Assembly: GCF_006739205.1 (NCBI RefSeq) | Contig: NZ_AP019720.1 | Location: forward strand, 1,550,001-1,614,000 | Source: Streptococcus mutans | GTDB lineage: Bacteria; Bacillota; Bacilli; Lactobacillales; Streptococcaceae | Reading direction: 5' to 3' | Length of the DNA: 64,000 nt | Shown here: one piece after another, positions 15,627-17,486 of the stretch | How positions within the stretch are numbered: the first letter of the stretch is position 1 | Layout of the letters: each line of letters starts with the position of its first letter | Program-made: the position numbers and the translations under genes | The notes under the pieces: model-generated | What the model was told of the DNA's origin: nothing | Database searches by the model: none | What the model saw: the letters and a program-made list of their open reading frames with translations, nothing else

Positions 15627-15872
15627 CTATTTTTGGTCTCCGAAGACATCATTATTATTATAGCAATATCCTGCCGCAAGCCCCACATTGATAGCAATAA
15701 CTCCTATTGCTAAGGCAGCTGCTGCTCCCCAAGTAAAGGCTTTATCAAGTTCTTCAACAGTCCCACCCCAGAGGGCCGAACCTAAACCTTCTCCTTCGGT
15801 AGTAGCAAGATATTCATTGTTAGCAATTTCAAAATTGTCAAATACCATTGAATCTAATGTTAGTGTATTCAT
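15627..15872 (-). CDS. class II bacteriocin-like peptide precursor with variant leader
   Basis: The 81-residue precursor has a leader (MNTLTLDSMVFDNFEIANNEYLATTEGEG) matching streptococcal Blp/mutacin-IV-type double-glycine leaders in pattern (F-x-x-F, N-x-E, L-x-x-x-E-G), but the processing site reads Gly-Glu-Gly rather than Gly-Gly. The putative mature part (about 52 residues) is rich in Gly, Ala and Ile, with WGAAAALAIGVIAINVGLAAG and a GxxxG motif, as in two-peptide class IIb bacteriocins, and one Cys. AAAGGAT precedes the ATG. It is third in an operon after a truncated leader and a small membrane protein. It may not be processed normally. Confidence 0.65.
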   Translation of the reverse strand: MNTLTLDSMVFDNFEIANNEYLATTEGEGLGSALWGGTVEELDKAFTWGAAAALAIGVIAINVGLAAGYCYNNNDVFGDQK

Positions 15873-15912
15873 TACAAATCCTTTTAATTGTACTATTTAA
15901 GCCCTATTAAAA

Positions 15913-16116
15913 TTATTTTTTTGTGAATAAGTATTGTAGCATTATACGAGCATCTTTACCATACCTTAACAACATATACAAGGTGAAAACTAGCCCAATA
16001 AGGGAAATAAAAATTTTTACCTTCTCATTTGTTATTGTTTTGCGTAGAAAAAATATAATAACTATAGTACTCGCATACAAACCACACATCACGATAGCAT
16101 TACTGGGATTTTTCAT
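15913..16116 (-). CDS. small two-helix membrane protein, possible bacteriocin immunity protein
   Basis: The 67-residue protein has two hydrophobic helices (about 7-24 and 35-53) and a basic tail ending LFTKK. No named family is recognised. AAAGGAG sits just upstream, inside the end of the preceding mini-ORF, and the two overlap as ATGA, so translation is coupled. Placement between a bacteriocin-type leader and a bacteriocin-like gene suggests an immunity role, which is inference from position only. Confidence 0.5.
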   Translation of the reverse strand: MKNPSNAIVMCGLYASTIVIIFFLRKTITNEKVKIFISLIGLVFTLYMLLRYGKDARIMLQYLFTKK

Positions 16117-16187
16117 AATAACTCCTTTAAATCAATCTGTATATCATTGCGTATCATAGCCATTGAATCTAAAGTTAACGTGTTCAT
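16113..16187 (-). pseudogene. truncated bacteriocin-precursor leader (24 codons)
   Basis: The frame encodes MNTLTLDSMAMIRNDIQIDL and four further residues, then stops. Its first nine residues are identical to those of the 81-residue precursor at 15627-15872, and GGAGA lies 5 bases upstream. After the shared start the leader pattern and all mature sequence are missing, so this looks like a decayed second precursor gene whose ribosome-binding site and promoter still drive the operon. Confidence 0.6.
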
Positions 16188-16218
16188 CAGGTTCTCCTTC
16201 TTTTAAAATTATGCGGTC

Positions 16219-16247
16219 ATTATAACGCTTAAAATTTGCTTATGCAA
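16219..16247 (-). promoter_or_regulatory. promoter of the bacteriocin-like operon
   Basis: On the minus strand TTGCAT (16247-16242) and TATAAT (16224-16219) are 17 bp apart, about 30 bases before the first leader ATG. No paired direct repeats of the ComE-box type were seen upstream. Confidence 0.65.
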
Positions 16248-16350
16248 GGAGATTTGAAATATTTAATGTGAATAGTAACCTTTTGAAAAAAAATCCAAAA
16301 TTTCTGATAATTATTATCTTTTTCTTCACCTTCTCTTCACTATCCAATCA

Positions 16351-16359
16351 TGCTATAAT
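16351..16359 (+). promoter_or_regulatory. extended -10 promoter of the methyltransferase remnant
   Basis: TGC-TATAAT is an extended -10 element whose predicted start site falls at the ATG at 16367. This implies a leaderless mRNA. Confidence 0.5.
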
Positions 16360-16366
16360 GATTTCC

Positions 16367-16723
16367 ATGACGAAGAAAAATCTGCTTAAGGGAGAGCGCA
16401 TTGACCAGCTCTTTTCTACCGATGTTAAAATTATCCAAAATAAGGAAGTTTTCAGCTACTCTGTCGACAGTGTCTTACTGTCGCGTTTTCCCAAGTTTCC
16501 ATCTAAAGGACTGATTGTTGAGCTCTGCAGCGGCAACGGCACAGTCGGCCTCTTTGCCTCCACTCAGACTAAAGCTAATATCCTAGAAATTGAACTCCAA
16601 GAACGGCTGGCTAATATGGGCATGGGCCAGCGTTCCATTGAACTCAATGGGCTAGCTGAGCAGGTGAAGGCGAGTGAAACCTCTAAGAAAAATGCCAGCC
16701 AGCACTATCTCCTAGCCCGATAA
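16367..16723 (+). pseudogene. internally deleted TrmN6-like tRNA1(Val) A37 N6-methyltransferase
   Basis: The frame starts MTKKNLLKGERIDQLFST and carries the family opening with the SAM-binding VELCSGNGTVGLF, through ELQERLANMG and RSIELNGLAEQVK. Intact relatives are about 250 residues and continue through the catalytic NPPY motif. Here the sequence jumps to SKKNASQHYLLAR, a segment that normally follows NPPY, and stops after 118 residues. The catalytic motif and C-terminal half are therefore gone and the gene should be inactive. No ribosome-binding site precedes the ATG; an extended -10 (TGCTATAAT) ends 7 bases upstream, as for leaderless transcripts. Confidence 0.75.
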
Positions 16724-16850: not shown

Positions 16851-17486
16851 ATGAAAAAGAACAAATTAATATTGCTAATTATTGCTGTTATTATAACTTT
16901 AGGCTGCCAGCATTCGCCATTATCTTATTCTGATAATCATCTTTTCAATCTCACAATAGCTTCTGCAGCAACTACAGATACTAACAAAGCGGAAAAAGCT
17001 GTTAAGAACTTAGAAGATCACCAGACTAGACAAAATTTAACAAAGGCTCAGCAAAAAGTTGATACGGTATCAGATGCAAATAAAAAAGAAAAACTTCAGC
17101 ATCGGGTTAATTTAGTTAAGCAAGCGATTACGATTAAAGAAGCACAAACAGCTGTTAAGTATTTAGAAGATCATCAATCCAGAGATAATATAGCAGATGC
17201 TAAAAATAAAACTGACCTCGTTACAGATGAAGGAACTAAAGCGAATTTAATCAATAGAATTAATCTTGTCGAAAATGCTATTGCTGCCAAAGAAGCGCCA
17301 ACGACTGAAAGTGCAGCACCTTCTCAAGAAGATCGGACTGTTTATGTTACCGGCGGCGGAAAATCACATGTTTATTGGTATAGCACAGAGAGTATGCCTT
17401 GGAATACCAATAGGAATAACATTGTTGAAATGAAAGAATCTGAGGCTATAGCCGCAGGAAAACGACATTCTCTAACAGAACCTTAA
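16851..17486 (+). CDS. predicted lipoprotein with two internal repeats and a conserved surface-type tail
   Basis: The 211-residue protein has a hydrophobic signal ending in a lipobox (ITLGC, Cys19), so it is probably lipid-anchored outside. Two 44-residue repeats follow (about 46-89 and 98-141), each with A-V-K-x-L-E-D-H-Q-x-R, then V-N-L-V-x-x-A-I, and predicted largely helical. After a Pro/Glu/Ala linker the tail (about 158-211) contains VYVTGGGKSHVYWYS, MPWNTN and AGKRHS, a pattern I recall at the ends of several secreted Gram-positive proteins of unknown role. No enzymatic motif is visible. Confidence 0.65.
   Translation: MKKNKLILLIIAVIITLGCQHSPLSYSDNHLFNLTIASAATTDTNKAEKAVKNLEDHQTRQNLTKAQQKVDTVSDANKKEKLQHRVNLVKQAITIKEAQTAVKYLEDHQSRDNIADAKNKTDLVTDEGTKANLINRINLVENAIAAKEAPTTESAAPSQEDRTVYVTGGGKSHVYWYSTESMPWNTNRNNIVEMKESEAIAAGKRHSLTEP

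Follow-up and report, generated by a model that had tools for sequence, protein, structure and literature searches.

The bacteriocin-like locus at positions 15,627 to 16,187 of the analysed stretch of Streptococcus mutans DNA (64,000 nucleotides of contig NZ_AP019720.1, hereafter the window, from a genome of 2,018,796 bases) is probably what remains of a bacteriocin-immunity island of class II (Gly-X leader) after collapse by deletion, with a chimeric bacteriocin precursor and a probable immunity gene still in place. This state would be the result of two or more deletions at short repeats. The first would have removed a first bacteriocin except for its promoter and leader start, and would have joined these to the 5' flank of a gene for a small membrane protein. 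This gene of 67 codons would still stand behind a promoter, and the truncated leader would be no more than a scar. The second would have joined the leader and the N-terminal part of a peptide with a GEG motif in frame to the C-terminal part of a leaderless remnant, resulting in a chimera of 81 residues. The anatomy of the locus, its homologies and the two junctions were directly observed, and the direction of the changes would follow, by parsimony, from two relatives, designated here G127 and Streptococcus sp. ZJ373.

All three frames that the initial annotation had described are present on the minus strand, together with the GEG motif, the start shared by two of them and an ATGA overlap. The 81-residue open reading frame (15627-15872, minus strand) consists of a leader ending in Gly-Glu and the N-terminal part of one peptide, called peptide A below, fused to the C-terminal part of a second bacteriocin; its leader region ends in ATTEGEG. 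Upstream of it lies an immunity-like frame of 67 residues with two hydrophobic segments (15913-16116, minus strand), and further upstream a truncated leader frame of 24 codons (16113-16187, minus strand), which reads MNTLTLDSMAMIRNDIQIDLKELL and whose TGA overlaps the ATG of the 67-residue frame as ATGA in the window. The nine residues MNTLTLDSM are identical in the 24-codon frame and the 81-residue frame, a match that is not due to chance, since this leader start recurs across a family of Streptococcus bacteriocin-like precursors. Neither the Pfam nor the NCBIfam library gave a name to any of the three frames: the 81-residue frame had no match up to E = 1 and the 67-residue frame none above the cut-off, and two paralogues of the precursor in the same genome matched no family model.

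The composite nature of the precursor is apparent from its relatives. Among 197 genomes of the genus, the 81-residue query had a match in eight including its own (E <= 0.001), and among the matches listed only that to its own gene extended over the whole query. In G127, whose flanks around the locus are 96-98% identical to the window, the query matched in two separate places, with residues 1-68 and with residues 47-81, and the blastn comparison of the window with G127 resulted in two collinear blocks that overlap by 7 bases in the query and have 565 bp extra between them in G127. The first approximately 50 residues of the chimera correspond to the longer G127 peptide A with the same GEG leader, and the last approximately 30 residues to a remnant, without a leader, of a second bacteriocin, located in G127 past the 565 bp that are absent from the window. 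This extra DNA encodes the remaining part of peptide A and an ORF resembling a small membrane protein, and also contains the remains of a further peptide. In the window, peptide A and the remnant are joined in frame at GCAGCAG (junction 2, 15719-15725, minus strand), a sequence common to both that falls at residue 50 of the 81-residue frame. Peptide A of G127 continues for 107 residues beyond its initial codon; this codon is ATA, in contrast to ATG in the window, so that G127 may itself be decayed at this place, and the C-terminal part has no start of its own in G127. ZJ373 carries the C-terminal part twice, degraded in both cases, one copy with a stop just upstream and the other frameshifted; the context upstream of both copies was judged by eye to be that of G127. 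The simplest history would be a deletion at GCAGCAG in the lineage of the window that created the in-frame chimera. Given that one genome of the species of the window was searched, the fusion may be strain-specific. A search of viral contigs for the fusion junction gave 0 matches, a pattern scan of genome contigs gave 136 matches from which one relative, ZJ373, was confirmed, and the literature yielded nothing under the residues of the peptide itself.

The 67-residue ORF is probably an immunity gene, as suggested by its size, position and hydropathy. It had matches in five of the 197 genomes (E <= 0.01), namely its own, G127 (99% identity), ZJ373 (94%), G042 (33%, among bacteriocin genes) and G176 (32%, with two stops), and a second, weak match in its own genome and in G127 extends with 38% identity over 34 residues. 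The gene has thus been retained at 94-99% identity, with neighbouring peptides broken. In comparison to ZJ373, dN was 0.029 and dS 0.142 (dN/dS about 0.20), corresponding to nine changed codons, four of them nonsynonymous and five synonymous; on these few changes, and with an assumed nonsynonymous fraction of 0.76, the one-tailed P for constraint is about 0.04. The sole difference from G127 is nonsynonymous. In ZJ373, the gene is preceded by peptide debris only, which suggests an immunity gene that has lost its own peptide.

Within class II, the window precursor is a variant and not a canonical member, since it has Glu at position -1, where the class has Gly, Ala or Ser. Phe at -15, Leu at -7 and Gly at -2 fit the leader model, which has hydrophobic residues at -15, -12, -7 and -4 according to the accessible text of PMC7018657; position -12 is Ala and -4 is Thr, and Thr at -4 is described in the accessible part of PMC6363468 as processed by another C39 peptidase. 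In the genome of the window, one C39 match exceeded the cut-off (G000:C1:1781933-1782343), located in an ORF of 774 residues. If the chimera is exported, its leader would presumably be cleaved behind Gly-Glu by this sole C39 transporter. The neighbourhood of the C39 ORF (L048, G000:C1:1780000-1790000) contains paralogous peptides with GE, GS and GG leaders, of which the GE one starts with ATA.

To obtain a sample of leaders that depends less on the GEG query, we searched 284 genomes of the genus with a profile of 11 mixed leaders, one being that of the window and the rest ending in GG, GS, GA or AG, and obtained a match in 37 of them (E <= 0.01). From the hits listed, the 101 with E <= 1e-4, which come from 10 genomes, were evaluated, except for six in which the frame stops short of the cleavage region or is disrupted at it. 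The remaining 95 leaders were tallied by hand as GG (54), GE (18), AG (13), GS (4), GA (4), GQ (1) and EG (1), two leaders that are one residue shorter (rows 79 and 94) being counted as GG. The 18 leaders with Glu at -1 are distributed over eight of the 10 genomes, and the G127 orthologue of the window gene has the same GEG. This does not support the earlier suggestion that GEG reflects decay or altered processing particular to this locus. Apart from the genome of the window, the other nine genomes carry one to five C39 matches each, some of which are fragments.

A considerable proportion of the GE genes lack a usable start of the full leader. Start defects, judged by hand, were found in nine of the 18 GE genes and in three of the 77 others (Fisher p = 6.7e-6, relatedness uncorrected); four of the nine are ATA codons and five are frame breaks or other codons. 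At the cluster level, 4/5 GE clusters and 3/40 others were affected (p = 0.001, again uncorrected for relatedness), counts that are coarse, since single linkage at 60% placed 14 of the 18 GE genes in one 20-member cluster via the shared leader. By hand, the 18 GE genes were divided into nine orthologue groups, and a start-defective member was present in seven of these. Such a distribution would be expected if Glu at -1 blocks processing, so that GE peptides are not exported and are silenced stepwise by start loss, with the window gene among those that still have a start. It would also be in line with the substrate motifs named in the accessible text of PMC6363468 and PMC7018657, which are Gly-Gly, Gly-Ala and Gly-Ser only. 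We consider this explanation possible rather than probable, because seven of the 18 GE genes, including that of the window, keep a start and an open frame of at least 81 residues, and some GE genes could be translated with a shorter leader from an internal ATG. In two more GE genes a start is followed by a frame of less than 50 residues, which is also the case in three of the 77 others.

Moreover, eight of the 11 GE-GE pairs with a defined dN/dS ratio have values of 0.14-0.38, within the range of the non-GE pairs, which argues against the GE genes being simply dead. The values were 0.14, 0.33 and 1.21 in group a (the last on 46 codons), 0.38, 0.38 and 0.33 in group b, 0.22 in group d, 0.16, 0.19 and one undefined in group e, and 0.70 in group g; the value of 0.64 for the window versus G127 is confounded by the fusion. 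A GE/GQ pair gave 0.11, a GE/GG pair 0.24 and 19 non-GE pairs 0.06-0.89, all pairs having been chosen by hand from among the possible ones. The constraint on the GE genes may partly predate the start losses. Two orthologues, L065 (G042:C18:91649) and L095 (G127:C1:1545559), comprise one gene with GEG and a lost leader start and one with GGG and a start. Another, rather doubtful interpretation is that Gly-Glu leaders represent an undescribed class of exported streptococcal peptides that would be recognised by the C39 transporter, which is often encoded adjacent to them, and the production of which would be throttled or switched by start-codon changes; here, a deletion would have put such a leader on a foreign core and formed a new peptide in one step. 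Among the open papers searched, we found none that mentions Gly-Glu, in this spelling, together with a double-glycine leader and a bacteriocin.

A novel and functional bacteriocin is an unlikely interpretation of the chimera; its leader would still work and direct the export of a new core, which would be released by cleavage behind Gly-Glu and be active, and the 67-residue protein would provide immunity to it. The chimera has an ATG with AAAGGA upstream, an in-frame join and a hydrophobic C-terminal part that was kept, features that would also fit selection for it, and the constraint in eight of 11 pairs of relatives with GE leaders is consistent with function. Such islands do fuse peptides: in the rtg locus, according to the accessible text of PMC7018657, rtgV is a probable peptide fusion and rtgA is still functional after a change of its start from ATG to ATT, so that neither a start change nor a fusion alone proves death. 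However, the chimera is carried by one of 197 genomes among the matches listed, and a random join is in frame in one of three cases. In addition, the 67-residue gene predates the fusion and was therefore not acquired for the chimeric core, and GE genes are often without a usable start of the full leader. Under the deletion history of the island that we favour, the chimera would probably be a weak or inactive by-product.

The truncated leader can be traced to the beginning of the island in ZJ373, which spans approximately 5.7 kb here and comprises two intact peptides near the promoter, followed by degraded peptides and immunity-like ORFs. Behind a promoter homologous to that of the window stands an intact first peptide (L044 5286-5528) that begins with MNTMSLDSMAFDNF, has a leader ending in DGG and scores below the cut-off of PF10439 (20.5 vs 27.1 bits); the 67-residue gene is located approximately 4.5 kb downstream. 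The 24-codon frame is collinear with this first peptide, including the promoter and the leader start, and tracks its leader until AATGG, whereafter the remainder of the frame matches the flank of the 67-residue gene (ZJ373 L044 from about 9763). The AATGG of this junction 1 (16160-16164, minus strand; compared by eye with ZJ373) is found both in the first leader and in the sequence flanking the 67-residue gene, so that short identical overlaps are present at both junctions. The same scar was found in G127, and the first deletion should therefore predate the split of the G127 and window lineages; the second one, the fusion, was seen in the window only and not in G127. To judge from this comparison, the truncated leader was left behind when a deletion removed the first bacteriocin peptide, and is not a partner of the GEG peptide.

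The initial annotation had interpreted the three frames as a two-peptide locus in decay and had proposed to look for an intact first peptide in other S. mutans strains. Decay is borne out by the larger island in the relatives and by at least two deletions, and an intact first peptide is present in ZJ373, but it is a different peptide, whose 5' end was joined to the flank of the 67-residue gene, and not the partner of the GEG peptide. A two-peptide (class IIb) locus has two adjacent intact precursors, and the upstream frame here has 24 codons. The shared MNTLTLDSM, one plausible promoter and the ATGA overlap would fit remains of a partner that now serve translational coupling, but this is most improbable, since in ZJ373 a distance of approximately 4.8 kb, with other peptides and remnants, separates the first peptide from the GTG-start leader behind the 67-residue gene, and since the overlap is absent from G127. 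There, the short frame has a 10-bp difference behind the leader part, reads MNTLTLDSMAMIYRLI and stops before the 67-residue gene; this earlier end means that the ATGA overlap is not conserved. The 67-residue gene has its own Shine-Dalgarno-like AAAGGAG upstream of the ATG in both the window and G127, which also speaks against the leader serving to couple translation.

Two further ORFs lie next to the locus. A methyltransferase-like ORF (16268-16723), with Pfam matches below the cut-off, is shortened and has an internal gap, as judged by eye, in comparison to an ORF of 335 residues in ZJ373 (L044 4033-5040), which suggests that the same neighbourhood is losing DNA. A putative lipoprotein-like ORF (16851-17486) contains a repeated module of approximately 45-50 residues (KAVKNLEDHQTRQNLTKAQQKVD...) and is conserved in G127.

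A putative promoter (16216-16247, minus strand), from which all three frames would be transcribed, consists of TTGCAT (16247-16242), a 17-base spacer and TATAAT (16224-16219). A single promoter for the frames is plausible; however, TTGCAT agrees with the -35 consensus at three of six positions only, and a consensus promoter scan, which listed four promoter-like sites compared to 4.7 expected by chance, did not list this one. The putative promoter is overlapped by a palindrome-type box, AATTTTAAGCGTTATAATGAC (16236-16216), with three mismatches to ATTTTAANNNGTTAAAATGAC. The box is located 49 bases before the start of the short frame; in 10 listed leader genes with a box, this distance was 48-53 bases in nine cases and 34 in one. 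A proportion of 0.002 of mononucleotide shuffles of the stretch matched ATTTTAANNNGTTAAAATGAC as well as the window box at -10, a figure that is optimistic, since the motif was picked after viewing these promoters, including that of the window. The ATTTTAANNNGTTAAAATGAC box is perfect upstream of two paralogues, and two promoters of the paralogous genes beside the C39 match (L048, G000:C1:1780000-1790000) have the palindrome GTCATTTTAA-N4-TTAAAATGAC at -10. Scanning the genome of the window for the palindrome with up to two mismatches resulted in six entries, and the reversed-pattern control in three, so that single weak palindrome sites mean little. The six entries are two sites without mismatch, each with a counterpart on the other strand (one counterpart having one mismatch), and two sites with two mismatches, of which that at 1782721 lies upstream of the C39 transporter ORF and that at 1331002 elsewhere. 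Two ComE-type direct repeats (ACCGTTTAGGA-like) are absent from the 250 bases upstream, where the best match has 10/22 mismatches. Repeats of this type occur with zero and two mismatches at two mutacin-like genes of the same genome, from which, and not from a paper, the ACCGTTTAGGA motif was derived; we take these genes to be mutacin-IV- and VI-like.

By description, the locus resembles the pneumococcal rtg locus, an island of several GG peptides with a conserved N-terminal leader motif at -22 to -18, a C39-type transporter (RtgAB), an inverted-repeat promoter element and disrupted genes (accessible text of PMC7018657). The rtg leaders end in GG, sometimes in GA or GS, whereas that of the window ends in GE. 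With the Blp and nonlantibiotic mutacin loci, the locus shares Phe at -18 and -15 and Leu at -7 of the leader, small membrane immunity-like ORFs and a C39 transporter; it differs from them by a promoter without ACCGTTTAGGA-type repeats, a leader ending in GE and a chimeric gene. In S. mutans, NlmTE is described to export and process a pheromone precursor (PMC5295010, accessible part). A small bacteriocin-like peptide of S. mutans with a GG-type leader, pep299/SMU.299, is also known from the accessible text of PMC9408444. Identity of the window peptide with pep299/SMU.299 was rejected, as the SMU_299c antisense transcript (PMC7521000, accessible part) gives an unrelated C-terminus when compared by eye.

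Taken as a whole, the locus is a decayed structure of a known kind, and it is informative for its chimeric precursor, which would be born of a deletion, and for the Gly-Glu leader as a common variant. The shrinkage that a bacteriocin island can undergo, with a probable immunity gene kept behind a promoter, can be followed here at the level of single bases, as can the way in which leader and core may be reshuffled by a deletion in a single step. Leaders ending in Gly-Glu, which account for about a fifth of the survey, raise the question of C39 processing at Glu -1 and of the frequent loss of the start in these genes.
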